Positions 4,041 to 22,748 of a stretch of 64,000 nt of DNA are shown in pieces. Made by a program: the position numbers and the translations under genes. The DNA is from Streptomyces albogriseolus (lineage in GTDB: Bacteria; Actinomycetota; Actinomycetes; Streptomycetales; Streptomycetaceae): assembly GCA_014650475.1 (NCBI GenBank), contig BMVA01000008.1:274099-338098 (forward strand). Reading direction: 5' to 3'. The notes under the pieces are model-generated. The model made no database searches. It had not been told where the DNA came from and worked only from the letters and a program-made list of their open reading frames with translations. Numbering within the stretch: position 1 is the first letter of the stretch; each line of letters opens with the position of its first letter.

Positions 4041-4600
4041 CCTGTCCCCCGCCCGCGCCGCGCCTGACGGCGGGCCGCCCGGTGCACGGTGAGGGCCGCG
4101 GTCCCGGCCAGGGCGAGGGCGACCACCGTCTGCGCGGCGCCGGGCCCGTGCCGCTCACGGCCGTCCGCGAAGACCCGCGCGGCGCCGCCGCCCCCGGCGT
4201 TCACGGGCGCGACGGGGGACGGATGCGCGGAGGGCTCGGCGCCCGCCGCGGGTGCCTGCTTCCGGACGACCTCGACGGTGCCCTTGTGCTCCGCGCCGTC
4301 GCAGGCGACGGTCACCGTGTACGTCCCGGCGGTGACCGTGGACCGTACCCGCCCGTCGCCCGCGAGGCCGTCGCCGTCGTCGGGGGTGAGGCGGGCGTCG
4401 GACACCAGCGCCGGGGACTGCGCGACCGCCTCGCGCGCATCGCACCCGGTCACCCTGAGGGCGATGTCGGCGCCGGGCGCGGGAGCCGCGGGGACCACCG
4501 AGACGTCCCCGCCGTCCGCCGCGTACGCCGCGCAGGCCGCCGGGCCGAACGCGGTGACGGCCAGGACACCCGCGCAGAGAGCGAGTCGCCGCTTACCCAT
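4037..4600 (-). CDS. Secreted/membrane-anchored hypothetical protein coupled to sortase
   Basis: 187 residues from the ATG at 4600, chosen because GGAGG stands 7 bases upstream. There is an N-terminal signal peptide (MGKRRLAL followed by a hydrophobic run to about residue 27), then an Ig-like/beta-rich secreted domain with a Cys pair, and an Ala/Pro-rich linker. A C-terminal hydrophobic helix is followed by an Arg-rich tail (HRAARRQARRG). That tail resembles a sorting signal lacking a visible LPxTG. It is translationally coupled to the sortase by a 4-base overlap, which suggests a substrate or partner. No named family is recognised. Confidence 0.75.
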   Translation of the reverse strand: MGKRRLALCAGVLAVTAFGPAACAAYAADGGDVSVVPAAPAPGADIALRVTGCDAREAVAQSPALVSDARLTPDDGDGLAGDGRVRSTVTAGTYTVTVACDGAEHKGTVEVVRKQAPAAGAEPSAHPSPVAPVNAGGGGAARVFADGRERHGPGAAQTVVALALAGTAALTVHRAARRQARRGRGTG

Positions 4601-4714
4601 CGTGAACCTCCAGACACTCTGGAGGTTCCCCCGCCCGGTCCGGCCCCGCACCCTCTTACGCGCGGCACTGGACCGGTCGGGTGAACGAGGTACGGCGAAA
4701 CGGCCGTACGACGA

Positions 4715-5494
4715 TCAGACGAGGTCGACGATGTCCGCGATCGAGTCGACGACCTTGCTCGGCCGGTACGGGAAGTTCTCCACCTGCTCCGGCCGGGTCA
4801 GCCCGGTCAGCACCAGGAACGTCTTCATGCCGGCCTCGATGCCCGCCAGCACGTCGGTGTCCATCCGGTCGCCGATCATCGCGCTGCTCTCCGAGTGCGC
4901 CCCGATGGTGTTCAGCCCGGTGCGCATCATCAGCGGGTTCGGCTTGCCCGCGAAGTAGGGCTGCCGGCCGGTCGCCTTGGTGATGAGCGCGGCCACCGCG
5001 CCGGTCGCCGGGAGCGGGCCCTCGGTGGAGGGGCCGGTCTCGTCGGGGTTGGTGCAGATGAACCGGGCCCCGGCGTTGATCAGCCGCACGGCCTTGGTCA
5101 TCGCCTCGAACGAGTACGTGCGGGTCTCGCCGAGGACCACGTAGTCGGGGTCGTGGTCGGTGAGGATGTAGCCGATGTCGTGCAGCGCGGTGGTCAGGCC
5201 GGCCTCGCCGATGACGTACGCGGAGCCGCCGGGCCGCTGGTCGTCGAGGAACTTGGCGGTGGCCAGGGCGGACGTCCAGATGTTCTCGATCGGCACCTCG
5301 AGCCCCAGCCGGCGCAGCCGGGCGTGCAGGTCGCGCGGGGTGTAGATCGAGTTGTTGGTGAGCACGAGGAAGGGCCGCCCGGACTCGCGCAGCTTCTTGA
5401 TGAAGGCGTCGGCCCCGGGAATCGGCACCCCTTCGTGGATCAGCACCCCGTCCATGTCGGTGAGCCAGGACTCGATGGGCTTCCTGTCTGCCAT
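4715..5494 (-). CDS. HAD-IIA family hydrolase (NagD-like phosphatase)
   Basis: 259 residues. The ATG at 5494 is preferred over the GTG at 5500 because GGAG is 9 bases from it but only 3 from the GTG. Motif I is DMDGVL (Asp13 nucleophile, Asp15), motif II is LTNNS, the Lys is in AGKPNPL, and motif III is GDRMDTD; these define HAD subclass IIA with a C2 cap. Such enzymes dephosphorylate small sugar or nucleotide phosphates in the cytoplasm; substrate not predictable. It stands alone, followed by no clear terminator. Confidence 0.9.
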   Translation of the reverse strand: MADRKPIESWLTDMDGVLIHEGVPIPGADAFIKKLRESGRPFLVLTNNSIYTPRDLHARLRRLGLEVPIENIWTSALATAKFLDDQRPGGSAYVIGEAGLTTALHDIGYILTDHDPDYVVLGETRTYSFEAMTKAVRLINAGARFICTNPDETGPSTEGPLPATGAVAALITKATGRQPYFAGKPNPLMMRTGLNTIGAHSESSAMIGDRMDTDVLAGIEAGMKTFLVLTGLTRPEQVENFPYRPSKVVDSIADIVDLV

Positions 5495-6930: not shown

Positions 6931-8007
6931 ATGACTGGCACTCCCCTCCGCGTCGGCCTCGTCGGCTACGGCCTCGCGGGCTCCGTGTTCCACGCCCCGC
7001 TGATCGCCGCGACCCAGGGCCTCGCGCTCGACACGGTCGTCACCTCGAACCCCGAGCGGCAGGCGCAGGCCCGCGCCGAGCACCCGGACGTCACGGTCGC
7101 CGCCTCGGCGGACGAGCTGTGGGCGCGCGCGGGCGAACTGGACCTGATCGTCGTCGCGTCCCCGAACAGGACGCACGTCCCGCTCGCCACCGCCGCCCTG
7201 GAGGCCGGTCTGCCGGTCGTCGTGGACAAGCCCGTCGCGGGCACGGCGGCCCAGGCCCGGGCGCTGGCCGAGCTGGCCGAGAAGCGCGGCCTGCTGCTGT
7301 CCGTCTTCCAGAACCGCCGCTGGGACAACGACTTCCTCACCCTGCGCCGGCTGATCGCCGACGGCGAGCTGGGCGAGGTGTACCGGTTCGAGTCGCGGTT
7401 CGAGCGCTGGCGCCCGCAGCTCAAGGGCGGCTGGCGGGAGTCCGGCGACCCGGCGGAGATCGGCGGCCTGCTGTACGACCTCGGCAGCCATGTCGTCGAC
7501 CAGGCGCTGGTCCTGTTCGGCCCGGTGACGTCGGTGTACGCGGAGACGGACGTCCGCCGCGAGGGCGCGCGGACCGACGACGACACCTTCCTCGCGCTCA
7601 CCCACGCGAGCGGGGTCCGCTCCCACCTGTACGTCTCCGCGACCACCGCCCAGCTCGGCCCGCGCTTCCGGGTCCTCGGCTCGAAGGCCGGCTACGTCAA
7701 GCACGGCCTGGACCCGCAGGAGGCCGCGCTGCGCGAGGGCTCGCGCCCGGGCACGTCCGGTACCGAGTGGGGTGCCGAGCCCGAGGAGCTGTGGGGCCGT
7801 CTCGGCGCCGGGGAGTCCCCGGTGACCGGCGGCGGCAGCCCCGTCCGCACCCTGCCGGGCGACTACCCCGCCTACTACGCGGCCGTGGCGCGGGCGCTGC
7901 TCTCCGACGGCCCCAACCCGGTGACCGCGCTGGAGGCCGCCGCGACGCTCGACATCCTGGAAGCGGCGCGCCGTTCGGCCGCCGAGAAGGTGACGGTGGC
8001 CCTGTGA
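6931..8007 (+). CDS. Gfo/Idh/MocA family oxidoreductase
   Basis: 358 residues from the ATG at 6931 (AAGTAGGAC ahead). The N-terminal Rossmann fold has GLVGYGLAGS (residues 8-17) for NAD(P). VDKPVAG carries the conserved Lys of the EKP motif, and DLGSHVVDQAL the catalytic His of the C-terminal domain. The family oxidises or reduces sugars, inositols and related polyols in the cytoplasm; the ROK regulator next door supports a sugar substrate. It overlaps the next gene as GTGA. Confidence 0.93.
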   Translation: MTGTPLRVGLVGYGLAGSVFHAPLIAATQGLALDTVVTSNPERQAQARAEHPDVTVAASADELWARAGELDLIVVASPNRTHVPLATAALEAGLPVVVDKPVAGTAAQARALAELAEKRGLLLSVFQNRRWDNDFLTLRRLIADGELGEVYRFESRFERWRPQLKGGWRESGDPAEIGGLLYDLGSHVVDQALVLFGPVTSVYAETDVRREGARTDDDTFLALTHASGVRSHLYVSATTAQLGPRFRVLGSKAGYVKHGLDPQEAALREGSRPGTSGTEWGAEPEELWGRLGAGESPVTGGGSPVRTLPGDYPAYYAAVARALLSDGPNPVTALEAAATLDILEAARRSAAEKVTVAL

Positions 8008-8492
8008 CCACCACCCCGAAGCCGGAACTCACCCCGACCGTGGAGGAGCTGGAGGCGCAGGAACGCCGCCTGGTCTTCCGCCGGTTCACGCACGACGACG
8101 CGTGGGCGCTGGGCTCGCTGCTGGTGGAGCTGGCGCGCGAGCGGCAGGCGCCGGTCGCGATCGACATCCACCGCGCGGGCCAGCAGCTGTTCCACGCCGC
8201 GCTGCCGGGCTCCACGCCCGACAACGACGCGTGGATCGCCCGCAAGCGCCGGGTAGTGGAGCGCTACGGCTCCGCGTCCTACCTGGTGGGCGCGCGGTTC
8301 CGGGCGAAGGGCACGACGTTCGAGGAGTCGTCCCGTCTCGACCCGGACACCTACGCGGCCCACGGCGGTTCCTTCCCGGTCACCGTCGAGGGCGTGGGCG
8401 TCGTCGGCGCGGTGACGGTCTCGGGCCTGCCCCAGCTCCAGGACCACCGGCTGGTGGTGGAGGCGCTGGAGCACTTCTTGTCGCGGGCGTAG
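8004..8492 (+). CDS. Heme-degrading/HbpS-like (DUF336, UPF0303) protein
   Basis: 162 residues. The start is the GTG at 8004, inside the stop of the oxidoreductase, so the two are translationally coupled. The sequence fits the UPF0303 branch of the GlcG/HbpS fold: an N-terminal helix, then FRRFTHDDAWALG, PVAIDIHRAGQQLFHAALPG, an IARKRRVVERYG segment and a terminal PQLQDHRLVVEAL. Related proteins bind heme or small organic ligands and travel with carbohydrate oxidoreductases; no catalytic residues can be named. Confidence 0.82.
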   Translation: MTTTPKPELTPTVEELEAQERRLVFRRFTHDDAWALGSLLVELARERQAPVAIDIHRAGQQLFHAALPGSTPDNDAWIARKRRVVERYGSASYLVGARFRAKGTTFEESSRLDPDTYAAHGGSFPVTVEGVGVVGAVTVSGLPQLQDHRLVVEALEHFLSRA

Positions 8493-8498
8493 CCCGGG

Positions 8499-9590
8499 TC
8501 ATGTGACGAGGAGGAGGACGAGGACGACGAGGGCCGCGGCCGCCGCCAGCACCGCTGCGGTGTTCCGGCGGCCCTCGTCCGACATGGCCGGCCGCACCGT
8601 GAGGCGGCCGGCCACGTTCCTGAAGACGTAGTACTCCCTGTTGCCGCTGCCCTTGGGTCGCGCCCTGACGACGGTGAGCCGTCTGATGACGACGGTGCGG
8701 TCCTGCTCCCCCTTCACCGTGTCCAGGTGCTGTTCGACGAGCGAGCGGTGCGGGAGGGGGAGGTCGTCGGGGAGCGGGTCCCCGGGGCCGAGCCGGTTCT
8801 CGTGCCACGACCCGGCGTGCAGCTGTGACGTCACCCGCTTCGGCGGACGGTGCGGCCACGGCACCTTCTCGGTCTCCGAGGTCCAGGTGATCCGTCCGGC
8901 GGTCCAGGAGGTCAGCTCACCGCGGCCACCGCACGTCCTGCACCTGACGGTCCCCTTGGAGGTGCAGGTCGTGCACGGAACGCGCCCCCGTCCCTGGCAC
9001 GTCTGGCATCTGACCTTCCCCCAGCCCTGGCAGCCGCCGCACGCGCTGTCGGGTGTGCCGCAGGCCGCGCATGTCACCCGCTCCTCGGGGCGCACCGGCC
9101 TGCGCGCCTTGGGCGGGCGGGCCGTACGGCCGGGCTTGCCGCCGTGCGCGAGGTACTGCGTGCACGGGGAGACCCCGGCGCACACGGGGCAGGGCCGGGC
9201 GGGCTCGCACGGACGGTACGTCATGCCGTCGCAGGCGGGACACTGCCGGAGGCCGTTCCCGCAGGCGCAGGCACGCTTGCTCACCGTGTCCCGCTTGACC
9301 AGGTCGAGCGGCTCGCCGCGCCGCACGTCCCGCGGGTCCACCTCGTATTCGTCCAGCACGTCGTAGACCGGCCGTTCGGCGAGGCCGGGGTCGCCGGGCT
9401 CGTCACGGGTCGTCTCGATGCGCGTCTCGACGCGCCGGACGACCGAGGCGTCGAGCAGGTGCAGCCGGTCGAGGTGGAAGTACGCGGACGTCCGAGCCCC
9501 CCATCTCCCCCGGCGGCGAGCCAGGCGCGCGTCCAGCTCCGCCCGCACCTCGTCCTCGGACGGATCCTCGGCCACCGTCACGCAGCTCAC
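8499..9590 (-). CDS. Tail-anchored zinc-ribbon protein with DnaJ-like CxxC repeats
   Basis: Up to 363 residues from GTG 9590; the GTG at 9581 has better spacing from the GGGGGA site and may be the true start. The middle carries many CxxC knuckles (CACGNG, CPACDG, CPVCAG, CAACG, CQTCQGRGRVPC, CRTCGGRG), like the DnaJ cysteine-rich domain but without a J domain. The C-terminus is a single hydrophobic helix ending at LLLVT, so the bulk should be cytoplasmic and anchored by its tail. Function unknown; a chaperone-like or metal-binding role is only a guess. Confidence 0.75.
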   Translation of the reverse strand: MSCVTVAEDPSEDEVRAELDARLARRRGRWGARTSAYFHLDRLHLLDASVVRRVETRIETTRDEPGDPGLAERPVYDVLDEYEVDPRDVRRGEPLDLVKRDTVSKRACACGNGLRQCPACDGMTYRPCEPARPCPVCAGVSPCTQYLAHGGKPGRTARPPKARRPVRPEERVTCAACGTPDSACGGCQGWGKVRCQTCQGRGRVPCTTCTSKGTVRCRTCGGRGELTSWTAGRITWTSETEKVPWPHRPPKRVTSQLHAGSWHENRLGPGDPLPDDLPLPHRSLVEQHLDTVKGEQDRTVVIRRLTVVRARPKGSGNREYYVFRNVAGRLTVRPAMSDEGRRNTAAVLAAAAALVVLVLLLVT

Positions 9591-9701
9591 TCCCCCCGGG
9601 TCGCGCGCCGCCCCGCCCCTCGGCGGGCGTGGACCGGCGTCGGGCGGACCCAGTGTGGCGGGGCGGGGCCCGACGGGGAAGGGCGCGTGCGACGGCCCTG
9701 C

Positions 9702-9730
9702 GGGGGAGCGCGGGAAACCCGCGCTCCCCC
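9702..9730 (-). terminator. Terminator after the FAH-family gene
   Basis: Perfect 13-bp arms GGGGGAGCGCGGG and CCCGCGCTCCCCC around AAA, 8 bases past the stop of the minus-strand gene. Confidence 0.85.
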
Positions 9731-9737
9731 GCCGTGG

Positions 9738-10595
9738 CTACGCCTGCGCCAGCACCTGCCGTTGCCGTCCCAGCCCCGTGACCTCCAGCTCCACCACGTC
9801 CCCTGCCCGCAGGTACGGCTTCGGTTCCGGGTGGCCCATCGCCACCCCGGCCGGGGTGCCGGTGTTGACGACGTCGCCCGGGTACAGGGTCATGAACCGG
9901 CTGACGTAGCGGACGACCTCGCCGACCGGGAAGATCTGCTCCGCCGTCGTGCCGTCCTGCTTCAGCTCGCCGTTGACCCACAGCCGCAGGGACAGGTTCT
10001 GCGGGTCGGGCACCTCGTCGGCGGTGACCAGCCAGGGTCCGAGCGGGTTGAACGTCTCGCAGTTCTTGCCCTTGTCCCAGGTGCCGCCGCGCTCGGTCTG
10101 GAACTCCCGCTCGGAGACGTCGTGGGCGACGGCGTACCCGGCGACGTGCGCGAGTCCTTCCTCCGCCGACTCCAGGTACCGCGCGGTCCGCCCGATCACG
10201 ACGGCCAGTTCGACCTCCCAGTCGGTCTTCACCGACCCGCGCGGGATCAGCACGGTGTCGTCGGGGCCGACGACGGTGTCCGGGGCCTTGAAGAAGATCA
10301 CCGGCTCGGCGGGCGGCTCGGCGCCGGTCTCGCGGGCGTGGTCGTGGTAGTTCAGCCCGATGCACACGATCTTGCCGATCCGCGCGAGCGGCGGCCCGGT
10401 GCGCAGCCCCGTCGCGTCCAGCGCGGGCAGGTCGCCGGCGGCGGCCGCGCTCCTGATCCGGCCGAGGGCGTCCTCGTCGGCGAGGAGCGTCCCGTCGATG
10501 TCCGCGACGAGTCCGGACAGGTCCCGCAGGGTCCCGTCGGGGTCGAGCAGCGCGGGCCGTTCGCGTCCCGCCGTACCGACGCGCAGCAGCTTCAT
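9738..10595 (-). CDS. Fumarylacetoacetate hydrolase family protein
   Basis: 285 residues from the ATG at 10595, which GGGAGA precedes; the longer frame has no ribosome site. An N-terminal small domain is followed by the FAH fold: GKIVCIGLNYHDHA, FFKAPDTV, WEVELAVVIG, and HDVSEREFQ with the metal-binding acidic residues, ending with PGDVVNTGTPAGV. The family hydrolyses or decarboxylates beta-diketo acids (ureidoglycolate lyase, homoprotocatechuate isomerase/decarboxylase types). No catabolic genes flank it, so the substrate is open. Confidence 0.9.
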   Translation of the reverse strand: MKLLRVGTAGRERPALLDPDGTLRDLSGLVADIDGTLLADEDALGRIRSAAAAGDLPALDATGLRTGPPLARIGKIVCIGLNYHDHARETGAEPPAEPVIFFKAPDTVVGPDDTVLIPRGSVKTDWEVELAVVIGRTARYLESAEEGLAHVAGYAVAHDVSEREFQTERGGTWDKGKNCETFNPLGPWLVTADEVPDPQNLSLRLWVNGELKQDGTTAEQIFPVGEVVRYVSRFMTLYPGDVVNTGTPAGVAMGHPEPKPYLRAGDVVELEVTGLGRQRQVLAQA

Positions 10596-14139: not shown

Positions 14140-14223
14140 GACCGGGACGAGCCGGCCGTGGACCGGCCCCGGAGGGCCTTCAGGCCCTCACTTCTGTCAC
14201 CTGCCGGCAGTACGGTGTCCCCC

Positions 14224-15234
14224 ATGCGCCCCGACACGCCTGCCGAAAACGTCGACCACATCAACGAGGCCGCCCGTCTGGAGCGGACCGCCGACCGCTA
14301 CCCCGAGGACGCCGAGGCCCTGCTGCTGCGGGCCGCCGCGCACCGGGAGCTGGCCGGCGACCGCCCGGCCGCGACGGCGCTCTACGACCGCCTGCTGACC
14401 TCGGGCGCGGACCTGGACAACCCGCACCTGGTCCGCGCCCTGAAGGCCTCCAACCTGTGGGAGTACGGCCACGAGGCGGAGGCCCGCGCGATCATCGCCG
14501 GCATCCGCACGGCGTCCCCGCGCGACCCCGCCGCCTGGGTGATCGTCGCGGAGGCACTGGAGGCGCACGACGAACTGGAGCAGGCGCACGAGACGTTCAC
14601 CGCGGCGGTGCGTCTGCTGCTGTCCGGCGTGAGCGAGCCGCCGCGCGCCACGCATCCGCTGCTCCTCGGCCGCCACCGGGTGCGCAGGATGCTGGGCGCG
14701 GCGCACGACGAGTGGGACGCGCTCGCCGACTCCGTGCACACGCACATCATCGGCCTGGACGAGCTGCACGACCCCAAGCGCGTGTGGTCGCTGGGCTCGG
14801 AGAACCCGGAGGAGCTGGAGGCGGAGATCCTGCGGCTGCGCGCCGAGCTGGGCGCGTACCGGGAGGCGCTGTCCCGCCCGTTCCCGGTGGCGGTGCTGCA
14901 CTGGCCGGCCGGCGAACTGGCGGAGCTGACGGAGGCGTACCCGGACCTCGCGGAGGAGTACCCGTCCTACGAGGCGCACCTGGGGACGATAGAGGCGGCC
15001 CTGCGCGAACTGGCCGCCTCCGGCACGCCGAACCTGGGCATCGTGCGGGGCACGGTCCCGTCGTACGAGGCGTTCGCCGCGTCGGAGTCGGCGTCCCCGT
15101 CCGACGCCTCGCTTCTCCCCCAGTACGCGACGACGCTCGCGGCGCGGGGGCGTGCGGTGGCGTGGCCGCCGGAGCGGTCGGAGGCGTGCTGGTGCGGGTC
15201 GGGGCGGGCGTACGGGGAGTGCCACGGGGCGTAG
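14224..15234 (+). CDS. TPR-like protein with C-terminal SEC-C motif
   Basis: 336 residues from the ATG at 14224. The first half is helical with tetratricopeptide-like periodicity (EDAEALLLRAAAHRELAGD and following). The last 15 residues, CWCGSGRAYGECHG, are a SEC-C zinc motif of the type at the end of SecA. Such proteins are widespread in actinobacteria and uncharacterised. A terminator-like hairpin follows. Confidence 0.85.
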   Translation: MRPDTPAENVDHINEAARLERTADRYPEDAEALLLRAAAHRELAGDRPAATALYDRLLTSGADLDNPHLVRALKASNLWEYGHEAEARAIIAGIRTASPRDPAAWVIVAEALEAHDELEQAHETFTAAVRLLLSGVSEPPRATHPLLLGRHRVRRMLGAAHDEWDALADSVHTHIIGLDELHDPKRVWSLGSENPEELEAEILRLRAELGAYREALSRPFPVAVLHWPAGELAELTEAYPDLAEEYPSYEAHLGTIEAALRELAASGTPNLGIVRGTVPSYEAFAASESASPSDASLLPQYATTLAARGRAVAWPPERSEACWCGSGRAYGECHGA

Positions 15235-16293: not shown

Positions 16294-16524
16294 AAATGGC
16301 CGGCGTCATTCCGTCGCCGCGCCGGGCAGCCACACGGGCGGGCGGCTTCCCGCCGTGCCGACGTGTGCGGGCTGTGGCGACCCGGCCGCACTGATCTCAT
16401 TCCATCTGCCGCGACGAGGGCGAGCGTCCACCGCCGGGCGGAGATCGGCCTCTGTCGGAGGTTGCAGCGGGCTCGTCGGGAGCGGGTGAACCCCGGGTGG
16501 TGGAGCGGTGCCTCTTCTGCCGTG

Positions 16525-16686
16525 ACGCCGCCCCGCTCGTACGCAGGCATCCCGTGGGCCAGGACTTCCGTACGCCCCTTGACCTCGGCCCGGCACAGCT
16601 CACGCAGGGGCCGTCAGGACGGCCTTGCAGCAGTCGGGGACCTCAGTGAGGTAGCTGTCGACGTCGGTTGTGCTGATTTGCACCAC
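16525..16686 (-). pseudogene. Remnant of a DUF1801-family gene
   Basis: From GTG 16686 the minus strand reads VQISTTDVDSYLTEVPD and runs to a TGA at 16600. A +/-1 shift near 16605 restores LRELCRAEVKGRTEVLAHG and then MPAYERGGVTAE, which is the familiar DUF1801 core, before similarity stops near 16525. The rest of the expected 110-120 residues (FASQK...YISFY region) is missing. This is a frameshifted, truncated relic at the edge of the accessory region. The rest of 16199-16733 shows nothing coding. Confidence 0.6.
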
Positions 16687-16733
16687 GGGGAGCTTGTGCC
16701 GAGCCGGGGGCGCTGTCCCTTCTTAGGTGTGAG

Positions 16734-17720
16734 CTACCGAGCTTGCCTGCCCTGCCTCTCCCAGTACTCGCGGTGATAGCGGAGGTAGGCGGGGTGCACG
16801 TAGTGCCCTTCTCGCACCCTGAGCTGCGGCAGCAGACTGACTCCCAACAAGGGCGCTCGCGGGATCAGATTGCGGTCGTCGTCCAGAGTGACGGCCCCCA
16901 TGTCGAGTCGCACATGGCAGTTGGGGCACAGGCAGATGATGTTGGGCTCAACGTCTGGCCCGTCGTGCGGCTTCCCCAAGGGGCGTATGTGCGCTCCTTC
17001 GCAGTAGGGCCTACCGTCGGGCCCCAACAAGCGGAGACCGCACAACTGACACTCTCCGTCATACAGCTGCTTGATCCGTTGCGCGGCAGCCGTATCGCGG
17101 ATCAGTCGACGTACCCGCACGCTGCGCGCACGGGGGAACTTCTCCTCGTACTGTGGCTCGTCGCCTAGTTCCTCCAGCACGTCCATCACATGCCGCTCGA
17201 GCTTCGTCTGCACTTGGTCCTGATCCGGAAGGCGCCGCAGGTCGAATTGGCAGATGCGGACGGGCGACCCATCCGGAGCCGGGTACTTGGAGATCGCGGT
17301 GCGCACGTCCGTAATCTCGTAGAGGCCGTCGTAGCGGTAGGAGTCAGACGGGGAGTAGCGGCGGTCGCCTTCGTAGCCCCGGATCACTCGGACGGGATAG
17401 CCCCGCTCGAAGCTGAGACGCAACGCAGCGTTGTCCGTGTAGGACCAGGACTGACTGCGCAGCAGCCGGCCGCTTGGATCCTTTTCCTTCCCCGGCGATG
17501 CTCCGGTGTACTGGATGCGGTCCCACTCGTCTTCGTCGTCCACGTAGCCGCCGTTCAGGACGATCGCATCGCTGACCTTGCTGCCGTCCTGGTCTAGCAG
17601 CCAGGAGATGCCGCGCTGATTCGTCTGGTGCAGCCGAGCCTCCTGTACGTCCTTCCGCCGATGGAACACCGTGCCCACGGGCACGCCCTCGATGTGTCCG
17701 ATGACGCGTTCGATAGTCAT
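16734..17720 (-). CDS. SRA/YDG domain-HNH endonuclease (modification-dependent restriction type)
   Basis: 328 residues from the ATG at 17720. An SRA-YDG domain fills residues 6-165: GHIEGVPVG, H31, NGGYVDDEDEWD, YTG, NAALRLSFERGYPVRVIRG and YRYDGLY. SRA domains flip out modified cytosine or recognise phosphorothioate DNA. A C-terminal HNH domain follows with CQLCG (224/227), GAHIRPLG (His244), Asn260, and CPNCH (265-269). Domain order matches type IV restriction enzymes of the ScoMcrA kind but lacks their N-terminal sulfur-binding domain. It is divergent from a PLD-helicase, and codon use is less GC-biased than in flanking core genes, which suggests transfer. Confidence 0.9.
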   Translation of the reverse strand: MTIERVIGHIEGVPVGTVFHRRKDVQEARLHQTNQRGISWLLDQDGSKVSDAIVLNGGYVDDEDEWDRIQYTGASPGKEKDPSGRLLRSQSWSYTDNAALRLSFERGYPVRVIRGYEGDRRYSPSDSYRYDGLYEITDVRTAISKYPAPDGSPVRICQFDLRRLPDQDQVQTKLERHVMDVLEELGDEPQYEEKFPRARSVRVRRLIRDTAAAQRIKQLYDGECQLCGLRLLGPDGRPYCEGAHIRPLGKPHDGPDVEPNIICLCPNCHVRLDMGAVTLDDDRNLIPRAPLLGVSLLPQLRVREGHYVHPAYLRYHREYWERQGRQAR

Positions 17721-17739
17721 CCACCCATGCTGGAACGCG

Positions 17740-17792
17740 AGTGATCACTTATGTCGAACTCTCGGTCGACGACGTCAAGTTGAGATCACTCA
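17740..17792. promoter_or_regulatory. Divergent promoter region with paired GATCACT motifs
   Basis: AGTGATCACT (17740-17749) is a perfect palindrome. TGAGATCACTCA (17781-17792) repeats its GATCACT core 40 bases on. Lying between the SRA-HNH and helicase starts, these are candidate operator sites. No clear -35/-10 was identified. Confidence 0.4.
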
Positions 17793-17882
17793 GCGCATCA
17801 TCTCGGCCATCACCGCCTCCGGTTGTCAGAGCCCTCTGTTACACATAGGCCCAGCTATTCGGCCGTGATCAAAGGAGCGTGC

Positions 17883-20800
17883 GTGTCTGAGCTGGAGGAT
17901 CTGTCCCACCCCGCCGCAGGCCTCTACGAGCAACTGATCACGCTCCGTTTTGAGCAGCAGCTGCACGAGCTGTCCCAGCTTGGCTGGTATCCGCTACGGG
18001 AAGACGTGGGCGCCGAGTCGGTGCCGCACGTACTGGCTCGGCACGTCGCACGCACTGTGCACCGTGTCCTGCTGAACCTTCCCGCGGAGGAGCGGGTGCA
18101 CGCTGCCAACCACATCTTGGAGTCCGTCAGCACGGTTAAGGGTGCCCAGGAGTGGGTCGATCTCATCGCTGACGGCCCTCAGCAACTGCTAGCGATCACA
18201 CGCCAAGAGGCTCCCGGGGTGTTCGCCGTTCGCCCGGGCATTCCGCTCTCCGATGCAGCGCTGCTCACCAATGCTCCTGAAGACCCAAGCCTCGGCTTTG
18301 AACTGCGCGCTGAGCTTGCCACGGCGGATCGCGTCGACCTGCTCTGCGCTTTCGTGAAATGGCATGGGCTTCGCGTCATCGAGCGGTCGCTACAGGCCGC
18401 CGCTGAGCGAGGTGTACCCATCCGTGTCCTCACCACGACGTACATCGGCGCCACAGAACGGCGAGCGTTGGACCGACTGGTTCGAGACTTCCAAGCTGAG
18501 GTGAAGGTCAACTACGAGACACGCTCAACGCGCCTGCACGCCAAAGCATGGCTCTTCCATCGAGGCAGTGGCTACGACACCGCGTACGTCGGCAGTTCGA
18601 ACCTCTCCAAGGCCGCCCTGCTCGACGGCTTGGAGTGGAACGTGCGCTTGTCCTCCGTGGCCACTCCCGAGGTGATAAGGAAGTTCGAAGCGACCTTCGA
18701 GTCGTACTGGAACGACCCCTCATTCGAGACCTACGACCCTGACGCCGACGGCTCCCGTCTCAGTGACGCACTCGCTGTGGCTGGCGGTGCGCCGGCGACA
18801 GGGAAGGCCATCACGCTAGCCGGCCTCAAAGTACGGCCGTATCCCTATCAGCGGGACATGCTGGAACGCCTCAATGTGGAGCGAGAGGTCCACCACGTTC
18901 ACCGGAACCTCTTGGTCGCCGCGACGGGCACCGGCAAGACCGTCATGGCTGCGTTGGACTACAAGCAACTCCGGCAGAAGCATGGACGCGAACTGCGTCT
19001 CCTCTTCGTGGCGCATCGTAAGGAAATCTTGCAGCAGTCTCTCCGGACCTATCAGGAGACCCTACTGCACGCAGATTTCGGGGAATTGCTCTACAGCGGC
19101 GAGATCCCGGAACGCTGGACGCACGTCTTTGCGAGCGTCCAGTCGCTCAATCCCCTGACTCTGGATCGCCTCGACCCGACCCATTTCGATGTCATCGTGA
19201 TCGATGAGTTTCACCATGGAACCTCTCCGACCTATCGGAAGATCATCGATCACTTCAAACCGATGGAGCTGTTGGGCCTCACTGCCACGCCGGAGCGCAT
19301 GGATGGGACAAGCGTCCAAGACGAATTCTTTGAAGGGCGTATCGCCGCAGAAATGCGCCTCTGGGAAGCTCTCGACAACAAGCTTCTGAGCCCCTTCCAC
19401 TACTTCGGCATCAGCGACACCACCGATCTCAGCTCGGTCGAGTGGAGGCGCGGATCGTACGACGTGAGCTCTCTCAGCAACGTCCTCACGGGCAACAAGA
19501 CGCGCGCCGCCCTCGTCGTGAAGGCAGTCGAAGAGAAGGTCGCTGACCCGAGCCGCATGCGCGCCTTGGGGTTCTGCGTCTCTGTGGCCCATGCCCACTT
19601 CATGGCCGATTCCTTCCGCTCCGCCGGCCTCCAGGCCGTCGCGGTGTCCAGAGAGACCCGGCCCGAGCAGCGACGGCAAGCACTGGCCGAGCTGAGGTCC
19701 GGTGCGCTGCAAGTAATCTTCTCCGTCGATTTGTTCAACGAGGGTGTCGACATCCCAGACGTCGACACGCTATTGCTTCTCCGCCCCACGTCAAGCTCGA
19801 CCGTCTTCCTGCAACAGCTGGGCCGGGGGTTGCGCCGATCCGACAGCAAGGCCGTGCTTACGGTCCTGGACTTCATCGGTCAGCACCGCAGGGAGTTCCG
19901 CTTCGAGAACCAGTTCCGCGCCCTGACCAACTTCACGCGGAAGCGACTACTGCACCACATCGAGCATGACTTCCCGAAGCTGCCCTCCGGCTGCGAAATC
20001 ATGCTTGAGGAGAAGGCGAAGCGCACGATCATCGCCAACATCAAGGAGCAACTCAACGTCAACGTGAAAACGCTGGCACGCGAAGTGGCGGATTATCGTG
20101 AGCCGCTTCTCGGTCGGTACCTGGAGGAGAGCGGCCGGGACATCAAGGAGGTGTACCGAGGGACGGGGAACTCCTGGACCGGGCTCCTTCGCCGGTCGGG
20201 CTTGCTGGACGAGGGAGCACCCGAGGGGGAGGCTGCACTGCTCAGGCGGGTCCCTGCCTTCCTCCACGTCGACGATCCTCTCCGCGTCCAGGCGTACACG
20301 CGCCTCCTAGGAGACGATGCTCCCGCTTACAGCCACCTCGATGAGCAGACCCAGGCTTACGCCCGCATGCTCTTCTTCCAGCTCTGGCCGCTAGGCGGGG
20401 TGACCCGGAAGGGGTTTGCGAGCTACGACGCCGGCTTCGCGGTCCTCCGTAAGCAGCGAGCGTTCCGCAGCGAGTTGCGCCAGGTGTTGGCTCACAATCT
20501 CGCCCATACCGAGCACATCCCCATCCCGCTGCTTGGGGTGGCTCGCGACCGCCCCATCCCGCTGACCGTGCACGCCTCCTACAGCCGCGAAGAGATCCTT
20601 CCCGCTCTTGGCCAAGCCGATATTGGAGGTCAGATGCCTGGGGACTTCCGGGAAGGGGTGCTGTGGTGTGAGTCCATCGCAACGGATGCACTGTTCGTCA
20701 CGCTAGAGAAGGACGAGAAGGACTTCTCTCCTCAGACCCGCTACCGCGACTTCGCGTTGAGCGACACGCGTTTCCACTGGGAGTCCCAGAACAGGACCTC

Positions 20801-21038
20801 GGAGTCATCCCCGACCGGCTTGAGGTATCAGCGCCACGCCAGCCAGGGCAGTCAGGTGCTGCTCTTCGTCCGCCGTTACAAGAGCACCGACATAGGGGGT
20901 CCACAGCCGTGGATGCTGTTGGGCCGCGCCGAGTACGAGCGACACGAGGGCAGCAGGCCCATGGCCATCACCTGGAAGCTGGAGCACGCTCTCCCGGCGG
21001 ACGTACTGTCGTACGCCCAGGCCGTCGCGGCGGGCTGA
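17883..21038 (+). CDS. PLD nuclease-SF2 helicase-DUF3427 protein
   Basis: 1051 residues from the GTG at 17883, which has AAAGGAG 5 bases upstream; upstream in-frame TTG 17823 and GTG 17865 lack a site. An N-terminal helical region precedes a phospholipase D-like domain with LHAKAWLF (His219) and YVGSSNLS. The SF2 helicase core has Walker A ATGTGKT (Lys352), IDEFHHG (Asp441), LTATPER, and QQLGRGLRR as motif VI. The long C-terminal part fits DUF3427. The architecture is that of a DNA translocase with a built-in nuclease, seen in restriction-like loci. It is divergent from SRA-HNH and ends 3 bases from the next convergent gene. Confidence 0.9.
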   Translation: MSELEDLSHPAAGLYEQLITLRFEQQLHELSQLGWYPLREDVGAESVPHVLARHVARTVHRVLLNLPAEERVHAANHILESVSTVKGAQEWVDLIADGPQQLLAITRQEAPGVFAVRPGIPLSDAALLTNAPEDPSLGFELRAELATADRVDLLCAFVKWHGLRVIERSLQAAAERGVPIRVLTTTYIGATERRALDRLVRDFQAEVKVNYETRSTRLHAKAWLFHRGSGYDTAYVGSSNLSKAALLDGLEWNVRLSSVATPEVIRKFEATFESYWNDPSFETYDPDADGSRLSDALAVAGGAPATGKAITLAGLKVRPYPYQRDMLERLNVEREVHHVHRNLLVAATGTGKTVMAALDYKQLRQKHGRELRLLFVAHRKEILQQSLRTYQETLLHADFGELLYSGEIPERWTHVFASVQSLNPLTLDRLDPTHFDVIVIDEFHHGTSPTYRKIIDHFKPMELLGLTATPERMDGTSVQDEFFEGRIAAEMRLWEALDNKLLSPFHYFGISDTTDLSSVEWRRGSYDVSSLSNVLTGNKTRAALVVKAVEEKVADPSRMRALGFCVSVAHAHFMADSFRSAGLQAVAVSRETRPEQRRQALAELRSGALQVIFSVDLFNEGVDIPDVDTLLLLRPTSSSTVFLQQLGRGLRRSDSKAVLTVLDFIGQHRREFRFENQFRALTNFTRKRLLHHIEHDFPKLPSGCEIMLEEKAKRTIIANIKEQLNVNVKTLAREVADYREPLLGRYLEESGRDIKEVYRGTGNSWTGLLRRSGLLDEGAPEGEAALLRRVPAFLHVDDPLRVQAYTRLLGDDAPAYSHLDEQTQAYARMLFFQLWPLGGVTRKGFASYDAGFAVLRKQRAFRSELRQVLAHNLAHTEHIPIPLLGVARDRPIPLTVHASYSREEILPALGQADIGGQMPGDFREGVLWCESIATDALFVTLEKDEKDFSPQTRYRDFALSDTRFHWESQNRTSESSPTGLRYQRHASQGSQVLLFVRRYKSTDIGGPQPWMLLGRAEYERHEGSRPMAITWKLEHALPADVLSYAQAVAAG

Positions 21039-21041
21039 ACT

Positions 21042-21701
21042 TCAGCTAGGGCCAGGGGCTGCGCCCAGTTCGGCTTCGAAGTGCGTCTGGGCGCGGTCCA
21101 AGATGTCGTCGGCGTCATGGCCGTGCGCCCTCAGCCAGTGCAAGAGGTCGGAGATGAGGTCGATGGCTGCCGCCTCCGTCGCCAGGGCGCCGATCCGGCT
21201 GTGACGCGGCCCGGTGGACAGCCGCCCATCGCTGTAGGAGCTGAGCATCTTCTCCGCTCGCGCCACACGCGTGCTTCCCACGCCGCCGCCCTGCGGGGTT
21301 ACCGGCGCGGCGACGATCTCGCACCACGTGACCTTTCCGTCCCGATGCAGGTCGACGCCCCAGCGATCCGACAAGGCGTCGATCAAGGTCATGCCTCGCC
21401 CGTTCTCGGCGTCCTCGGTCGCCTCCATGAGCGTGGGAAGCACGCGTGTATCCGGGTCCCGCACCTCAAGGCGCAGGCGGGCATCTCCCAGAGAGAGGGT
21501 GAGGCTGGCGGGGGTCCCACGACCCACGTGAGTGATCACGTTGGACACGAGTTCACTGACACAGAGCTGAGCCGCGTCGATGACCTCCCGAACACCCCAG
21601 TCACGGAGTCGCACTCGTACGTCTGCTCGCAGCGCCGAGACCTCTTCGGGCTCGGCGAGGAATTGAACCCGCCAGAGGGGGATGTGAGCCGCTTCGTCCA
21701 C
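21042..21701 (-). CDS. RsbW-like ATP-binding (HATPase_c) regulator
   Basis: 219 residues from GTG 21701 (TTAGGAGGAG just upstream). The GHKL ATPase fold has the N box in CVSELVSNVITHV, the acidic EVRDPDTR and the GRGMTLIDALSD lid. These are hallmarks of the anti-sigma-factor-like kinases so abundant in Streptomyces. A C-terminal extension of about 80 residues is helical and not part of the core fold. It is divergent from the DUF5753 regulator, and the three genes form a cassette often seen in this genus. Confidence 0.88.
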   Translation of the reverse strand: MDEAAHIPLWRVQFLAEPEEVSALRADVRVRLRDWGVREVIDAAQLCVSELVSNVITHVGRGTPASLTLSLGDARLRLEVRDPDTRVLPTLMEATEDAENGRGMTLIDALSDRWGVDLHRDGKVTWCEIVAAPVTPQGGGVGSTRVARAEKMLSSYSDGRLSTGPRHSRIGALATEAAAIDLISDLLHWLRAHGHDADDILDRAQTHFEAELGAAPGPS

Positions 21702-21754
21702 GCTTCTCCTCCTAAGTAGGCCACGCTGGTGACGCCTTGCATGTGGTCACATAC

Positions 21755-21791
21755 TGAGAGTTGCACTGAAACTCTCAAAATGAAACTCTCA
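21755..21791. promoter_or_regulatory. Triple 11-bp operator-like array
   Basis: TGAAACTCTCA occurs exactly at 21767-21777 and 21781-21791 (14-bp period). An inverted copy with one change, TGAGAGTTGCA, is at 21755-21765. It is AT-rich against its surroundings and lies between the RsbW-like gene and the DUF5753 regulator, so it is the likely binding array of that regulator. Confidence 0.6.
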
Positions 21792-21902
21792 CAAGGTGTC
21801 TGGTGGAGTGCGAGGAGTCGTACGCGCCCCCGGCGCACACCGCCTTGCCGTGACGAACGCGGGGAGGCAACTATCGATCGACTCGCACGAAGGGCTCATG
21901 CC

Positions 21903-22748
21903 ATGCCAGTTGGACCCACCACCCGACGGCGTCAGTTGGGCGCCGACCTCCGCCGACTCCGCGAACTGGCGGGCTTAACGCTGGAGGAAGCGGGAGCACG
22001 CGTGGGCATCTCGAAGGCGACTCTGAGCCGCTACGAGACCAAGGAAGGCGTGGTCAAGTGGCCGGCCGTGGACGCACTGTGCCGGGAGTACGGAGCGACG
22101 GATGAAGAGCGCTTCGCCCTGGTCGAGCTGGCCAAGGGCGCACGGATTCAGGGGTGGTGGCGCTCTCTCGCCGACCCGATCCCCGAGTCCATGAACCTCA
22201 TGCTCACCCTTGAGGACGAGGTGGTGCGCGAGGACCACTACGCCTGCATGTACGTTCCAGGGCTGCTCCAGACCCGCGCGTATGCCGAAGCCGTGCATCG
22301 GGCTTCGGAGGTGCAGTGCGAGGAACGCGAAGTCCAGCACATGGTCGACATCCGCATGAAGCGCCAGGAGCTTCTGGAACGCCAAGACCCACCGCACCTC
22401 TGGGCGGTGATCGATGAGGCCGCGCTACGGCGACGGGTGGGCGGCCGTGATGTGATGCGGGAGCAGCTGAAGCACCTGCTGACGATGGCTGAGCGTTCGC
22501 GCGTCACCGTGCAGGTCTTGCCGTTCGACCGAGGCGCGCACGCTGCGGCGGTCGGAAGCTTCGCGGTGCTGCGCGGCCAGGCTCCCGAACTCGACGTGGT
22601 GTACGTGGATCTCCTCGGCGGTGGGCTGTTTATGGAGAAGCCAGAGGAACTCGAGCGTTATAAGTTGGCGTTCGAGTACCTCAGCGCCCAGGCACTCGAC
22701 TTCGAGTCCTCCACCGATCTCATCGACCGGATCAGCAAGGAGACCTGA
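21903..22748 (+). CDS. XRE-type regulator with DUF5753 domain (WhiJ-like)
   Basis: 281 residues from the ATG at 21903 (GAAGGG upstream). The helix-turn-helix lies at residues 8-65 (LGADLRRLRELAGLTLEEAGARVGIS region with SKATLSRYE). The DUF5753 domain covers the rest: YVPGLLQTRAYAEAV, ERQDPPHLWAVIDEAALRR, VTVQVLPF and the C-terminal YKLAFEYL. Such regulators pair with DUF397 proteins and influence development and antibiotic production. The stop overlaps the next ATG. Confidence 0.93.
   Translation: MPVGPTTRRRQLGADLRRLRELAGLTLEEAGARVGISKATLSRYETKEGVVKWPAVDALCREYGATDEERFALVELAKGARIQGWWRSLADPIPESMNLMLTLEDEVVREDHYACMYVPGLLQTRAYAEAVHRASEVQCEEREVQHMVDIRMKRQELLERQDPPHLWAVIDEAALRRRVGGRDVMREQLKHLLTMAERSRVTVQVLPFDRGAHAAAVGSFAVLRGQAPELDVVYVDLLGGGLFMEKPEELERYKLAFEYLSAQALDFESSTDLIDRISKET

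Follow-up and report, generated by a model that had tools for sequence, protein, structure and literature searches.

Do two nuclease genes that diverge from each other across 162 bp in Streptomyces albogriseolus form one restriction system, or two systems that have come to be inherited together? Both lie in a 64,000-nucleotide stretch of contig BMVA01000008.1 (the window). One encodes an SRA-HNH protein of 328 residues (16734..17720, minus strand), assigned by Pfam, alignment and a PDB match to the modification-dependent nucleases of the TagI/ScoA3IV type. The other encodes a SauUSI-like protein of 1051 residues (17883..21038, plus strand; below, the helicase), in which Pfam, PADLOC and a PDB match to SauUSI point to a PLD nuclease, an SF2 ATPase and a DUF3427 domain. 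An earlier note on this DNA had proposed a two-gene system, with modified DNA recognised by the first protein and cut by the second. With a probability of roughly three in four, we read the locus as two predicted Type IV enzymes, co-inherited in a chromosomal slot that resembles an immigration control region and probably layered rather than joined in one complex.

Two predicted Type IV enzymes

The SRA-HNH protein carries an SAD_SRA domain over residues 7-167 (E = 8e-33) and an HNH_2 domain (4e-9), and matches TagI (PDB 6ghs) over residues 2-318 (E = 1.5e-58). Its predicted base pocket consists of Y59, D62 and Y71, aligned to Y55, D58 and Y67 of TagI, and its HNH domain holds the catalytic residues H244, N260 and H269 together with zinc cysteines C224, C227, C265 and C268 in a CxxC + CxxC arrangement, the roles of all these residues being taken from the TagI paper (PMC6212794). 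An alignment of 14 sequences shows no variation at the pocket residues and almost none at the HNH residues. The features of the TagI family are present: an N-terminal SRA domain with a Tyr-Asp-Tyr pocket, followed by a C-terminal HNH domain with a zinc site. The two domains, the pocket and the HNH residues are held in common with TagI (PDB 6GHS), ScoA3IV (Sco5333) and TbiR51I (PMC6212794).

In the helicase, Pfam recognises PLDc_2 (5e-12), ResIII (2e-35), Helicase_C (1e-12) and DUF3427 (3e-19), giving the order PLD nuclease, SF2 ATPase, DUF3427 in one chain; SauUSI of Staphylococcus aureus (PDB 7CLG) likewise unites PLD nuclease, SF2 ATPase and a DUF3427 target-recognition domain. The SauUSI structure is matched with an E-value of 1.3e-75, and the PADLOC mREase_IV profile PDLC03659 over its whole length (1475 bits, helicase residues 102-1050). 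A structure model of low confidence, with a mean pLDDT (predicted local distance difference test) of 61, has 7clg as its best fold match in Foldseek, over 969 columns with a low TM (template modelling) score of 0.17-0.24. The motifs H219xK221, GSSN (237-240), Walker A GTGKT (349-353) and DEFH (441-444) have counterparts in all 109 helicase sequences, that of the window included. Unlike SauUSI, the helicase has about 100 extra N-terminal residues, the PADLOC profile beginning at residue 102, and its gene has a RecA-NDp-like promoter and is accompanied by a divergently oriented nuclease gene. The start of the gene may be placed at TTG 17823 (the longest frame, 1071 residues) or at GTG 17883 (1051 residues), the latter preceded by an AAAGGAG stretch and leaving the 162-bp gap; with this start, and by Pfam, the coordinates, strands, domains, length and gap in the earlier note all hold.

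That DUF3427 is a domain of unknown role was considered and rejected: in SauUSI, methylcytosine is read by the C-terminal domain, which adopts an SRA fold (PMC7913695) and is called DUF3427 in a review (PMC3874153). Each of the two genes therefore looks like a complete Type IV enzyme, and it is likely, judging from homology, that both proteins combine a reader with a nuclease. Modification-dependent restriction is the best guess for the SRA-HNH protein and the helicase alike. In this respect the earlier interpretation survives, carried by the TagI, SauUSI and PADLOC matches; its division of labour is not needed, because each protein holds its own reader and nuclease. Sco2863/ScoA3I of Streptomyces coelicolor immediately follows the SauUSI-type enzymes in the table of a review, which credits it with m5C restriction in vivo (PMC3874153); it is called a helicase in PMC6637917, and a "putative helicase" with an hsdR-like domain in PMC1934918. 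Its kinship to the helicase of the window rests on these published descriptions.

Relatives of the helicase occur in 23 plasmid records, every one below 60% identity. Four further helicase frames (L341-L344) have long N-termini without PLD, the match including the DUF3427 region in L341 and L342; we take these to be of the conflict-system helicase type. Conflict-system proteins share the helicase, and some also DUF3427, with the protein of the window; they differ in their long non-PLD N-terminus (PMC7159879). Frames of this kind (four seen) were excluded from the counts of helicase loci.

A co-inherited pair

The genus survey covered 392 genomes, with a helicase match in 125 and an SRA-HNH match in 64. 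Thirteen of the 125 were dropped as partial, differently fused or RadD-like (G006, G029, G144, G183, G185, G187, G214, G223, G321, G334, G351, G373 and G390), leaving 112 helicase loci. An SRA-HNH gene neighbours the helicase in 17 of these, 14 divergent (one a fragment, one in two pieces) and three tail to tail; these 17 exclude a further locus (L046), where a relaxed cut-off reveals short SRA fragments next to the helicase. The analysis also took in the best 80 of 256 SRA-HNH loci from a second, named collection that partly coincides with the genus survey. Here a close clade, at least 55% identical to the SRA-HNH protein of the window, has a divergent helicase in 23/28 loci (one of the other five lies at a contig edge), and a sister clade, at 41-49% identity, has a tail-to-tail helicase in 10/13; for the other 39 of these best 80, the fetched flanks contain none. 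The recurrence of the pair across loci in both collections led us to reject chance adjacency. All paired records are listed as Streptomyces except L221 (Actinobacteria bacterium OV320). A word search of the text of the TagI paper (PMC6212794) found no mention of a helicase; in the present surveys, SRA-HNH genes of two Streptomyces clades are linked to one.

The two genes have also diverged together. In the tree, 34 paired SRA-HNH genes (33 and that of the window) fall with eight unpaired ones into a single group of 42 rows, and pairwise distances of SRA-HNH and helicase are correlated over 21 loci (r = 0.72; 0.65 after removal of c1, a gene flanking the locus that is introduced below; permutation p = 0.0005). 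The earlier note had set co-conservation of the two families as a check on its proposal, and the frequencies of 23/28 and 10/13 together with this correlation pass that check. At the level of whole genomes, the helicase is present in 14/17 genomes with a close-clade SRA-HNH gene, compared with 10/28 with an MrcB_N gene and 112/392 overall. The close-clade excess has a p-value of 4e-6 when loci are counted as independent of phylogeny, the clade having been set by eye at an identity of at least 55% with the fragment in G326 included. For the sister clade, Fisher's test gave no significant association (run on 3/7; a recount with G075 gives 3/8).

The pairing is real and co-inherited, and it is not obligate: each gene also occurs alone, as neither would in an obligate two-gene system. 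G003 and G083, in which no helicase was matched, possess an SRA-HNH gene. Sampling 394 genomes across the class turned up the helicase in 59 of them, from 31 of 137 genera, and an SRA-HNH match in only seven; outside the genus the pair did not appear, a weak negative as only two of the outside SRA-HNH matches span both domains.

Other nucleases also stand beside the helicase. An MrcB_N-domain protein, present in 28/392 genomes, is divergent from it at 7/112 loci, and a DUF6602/NucC-like nuclease at four (L042, L044, L045 and L048). Two more loci encode a protein fitting a 560-residue Type IV HNH profile, which we label ScoMcrA-like, one divergent and one downstream on the same strand. Counting SRA-HNH, some nuclease companion is found at 30/112 loci. 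Pfam gave no second domain for the MrcB_N protein, the C-terminus of which we read as PD-(D/E)XK-like. Its coincidence with the helicase does not differ significantly from background (10/28 versus 112/392), so that it serves as a control for slot sharing, and one that close-clade SRA-HNH exceeds.

A slot for opposite systems

The pair sits between a gene for a 339-residue SEC-C motif protein on the left (c1; 14215..15234, plus strand) and a cassette on the right, formed by an HATPase_c_2 gene (c3; 21042..21701, minus strand) and an XRE-DUF5753 regulator gene (c2; 21936..22748, plus strand, assigned by Pfam on the longer frame 21729-22748). Within fetched flanks of about 6 kb, c1 is found at 86/112 helicase loci, and c3 and/or c2 at 73/112. 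The restriction content varies at a single chromosomal site while the anchors around it are conserved, as in an immigration control region.

This variation extends to enzymes of opposite sign. Helicase-less genomes were chosen without regard to slot content, 10 for having few contigs and 20 by handle number; c1 was present in 19 of the 30, and 18 were fetched (G032 has only a fragment of c1), with the SRA-HNH holders G003 and G083 added outside the 18. A first C5-methyltransferase model, for which these helicase-less loci themselves supplied the five genes used, was matched in 11/18 of these genomes and by one fragment in the 112 helicase loci; a second, built from three methyltransferase genes of the window's own genome only, gave 11/18 and 0/112. 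Within 6 kb after c1, a C5 methyltransferase occurs in 8/18 helicase-less genomes and in none of the 86 helicase loci that have c1, the sequence reaching this far in 84 of them. A near relative has an NaeI-type system in the same slot. In related strains, the slot can hold either systems predicted to cut DNA with 5-methylcytosine (5mC) or systems predicted to make it, a swap of opposites. Enterobacterial and Listeria immigration control regions likewise carry alternative restriction systems between conserved anchors (PMC3874153, PMC12707154, PMC10059834); unlike them, this slot has other anchor genes and contents of opposite sign.

Such a slot invites the alternative that it merely gathers restriction genes, the adjacency of SRA-HNH and helicase having no functional meaning. 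MrcB_N, NucC-like and ScoMcrA-like companions of the helicase fit this well, as does the near-background rate of MrcB_N, and both SRA-HNH and MrcB_N genes also adjoin c1 in slots without the helicase, facing c1 as in the window. Simple hitch-hiking would, however, leave the close-clade excess and the shared divergence of the two genes without a cause, and although we give it serious weight, we hold it to be doubtful.

A single two-component machine, in which the helicase recruits the SRA-HNH protein or is supplied by it with cutting, would account for the two genes associating and diverging together to a degree beyond slot sharing. Further support comes from S. tagetis RG38 (L218, about 7220-9836), where an open helicase frame of 873 residues lacks residues ~119-294, the PLD domain, and adjoins an SRA-HNH match over residues 1-324. 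This hints that a neighbouring SRA-HNH protein can supply the cutting, but the loss, unique among 33 named helicases, could also mark the onset of decay. Against this one case stand the existence of each gene alone, a reader and a nuclease in both proteins, promoter elements of differing type and the occurrence of the pair in two orientations, and a shared machine is accordingly unlikely.

The reading as two co-inherited enzymes in an immigration-control-like slot has its own difficulties. The acid of the SauUSI motif HxK(x)4E is not kept, being R in 103, H in four and Q in two of the 109 sequences, for which reason the helicase is named SauUSI-like and not SauUSI. The tests count loci as independent, yet the divergent-pair label needs only three changes on either tree. 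No SRA-HNH gene neighbours the helicase at 95/112 loci, and the flanks fetched for four close-clade SRA-HNH genes (L223, L226, L227 and L234) contain no helicase, so that the two genes need not go together; other nucleases can also occupy the divergent place of SRA-HNH. As to the swap, GHKL genes typical of the methyltransferase alleles occur, without methyltransferase, at three of the 112 helicase loci (L072, L131 and, at its edge, L059), possibly as mosaics of methyltransferase and helicase alleles. Finally, three C5-methyltransferase-like open reading frames (ORFs) lie elsewhere in the window's own genome (L335-L337; C23, C4 and C6), so the host itself may carry 5mC. By eye, two of these three resemble each other, adjoin replicative-helicase-like ORFs and seem to belong to integrative elements.

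The literature searched, mostly open-access and in partial text, held no description of the pairing, the slot or the helicase promoter. The enzyme families have been described before; what appears to be new is their inheritance as a pair, together with the exchange of opposite systems within a single slot. Many Streptomyces are hard to work with because they restrict methylated DNA, and slot content, read from a few kilobases, could help to predict which strains reject methylated plasmids. The slot also documents, in nature, how methylation and anti-methylation systems take each other's place.

Composition and edges set the pair apart within the window. The earlier note had described codons less GC-biased than those of the neighbours, and GC content at third codon positions is indeed 0.81 for SRA-HNH and 0.79 for the helicase, compared with 0.90-0.98 in their three leftward neighbours; overall GC is 0.64 and 0.63, compared with 0.75, 0.75 and 0.69. 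It had also placed the pair between a decayed gene and a mobile-looking regulatory cassette. The decayed gene stands, as a remnant of a DUF1801-family gene (16520..16704, minus strand): its DNA is 76% identical to positions 4552-4737 of the related locus L299, about half of an intact 108-residue ORF there, and its minus-strand reading weakly matches (E = 4e-6) an ORF named DUF1801 by Pfam. The cassette is instead the usual right flank of the slot, and its mobility as a unit with the pair was rejected, since it also flanks slots with MrcB_N only (L310 and L311). The remnant is the last DNA shared with the relative G027 ahead of the pair, and similarity to G027 resumes on the right at 21972-22712 (68% identity).

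Promoters and the 162-bp gap

Upstream of the helicase lies an element, TGTCAGAGCCCTCTGTTACACA (17824..17845, plus strand), that resembles DNA-damage promoters of the RecA-NDp/PafBC type in its -26 box and in the N8 spacing to a TA. The consensus used (TGTCRGTG, N8, TA, with a -10 of the form TAnnnT) is reportedly that of Gamulin and colleagues from 2004. Over 109 loci, TGTCRGTG-N8-TA is matched at 9/11 or better before 87 helicases, mostly 50-90 bp ahead of the start, with 10/11 in 54 and 9/11 in 33 more, the window scoring 9; when single bases are shuffled, 1.9 of 109 loci reach 9 and none scores higher. The -10 departs from this form at its last position, where another base replaces T in the window and at nearly all loci listed (mostly TA-N-AAC), and so the element is called RecA-NDp-like only. 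It was not found (scores of 7-8/11) before the helicases of 12 checked loci from other families, and no element of this type was seen for SRA-HNH.

Calibration on the window's own genome gave no match to a strict pattern, which missed the window's own element too, and 36 matches to a looser one, compared with none for the reversed pattern. Of 30 matches fetched, 29 precede a reading frame, some of these likely being recA, ruvC, uvrA, uvrB and uvrC by eye from their first residues. These 36 sites suggest a PafBC-type regulon in Streptomyces. A RecA-NDp promoter has been reported at SCO6735 and recA of S. coelicolor (PMC5087735), and an initial search did not find the M. smegmatis PafBC motif in S. 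venezuelae (PMC9380542). When topA was lowered in S. coelicolor, sco2863 rose by 1.98 log2, along with recA, uvrA and lexA (PMC6637917, Table 5); the authors discuss LexA for this response, and PafBC does not occur in the available passages of that paper.

If the helicase is indeed a restriction enzyme under damage-type control, restriction would be linked to DNA repair. A two-stage alarm can be imagined. The SRA-HNH protein, produced constitutively from a near-leaderless promoter, would nick incoming modified DNA without ATP; single-stranded DNA arising from the nicks would induce the SauUSI-like enzyme through its PafBC-type promoter, and this enzyme would then shred the invader. The sentinel would be swappable (SRA-HNH, MrcB_N, NucC-like or ScoMcrA-like) and the inducible shredder kept. 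We consider this scheme, in which a first cut induces the second enzyme, quite improbable. That the helicase is mainly a repair enzyme, as its promoter element, the rise of sco2863 with recA, uvrA and lexA (PMC6637917) and a RadD similarity below the family cut-off might imply, is very unlikely given its PLD nuclease and DUF3427, the full-length mREase_IV match, its patchy presence (112/392 genomes) and the restriction of m5C DNA by Sco2863 in vivo (PMC3874153).

Within the gap, an 8-bp inverted repeat (GAGTGATC / GATCACTC; arms 17739-17746 and 17784-17791) was rejected as a conserved feature between the genes, the arm at 17784 not being conserved in the alignment and only the GATC-type motif beside SRA-HNH being so. 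A conserved LexA box was rejected too: inspection by eye gave a single imperfect, unscored match, confined to the window. When 21 divergent loci are aligned, they outline a promoter-like region for SRA-HNH (17725..17759, minus strand), with a TTGAC-type box, a GATC repeat, an AGTATGG-type box and the start a few nucleotides on. The GATC-type repeat between these boxes (17739-17759) recurs in 20 relatives and is a possible operator.

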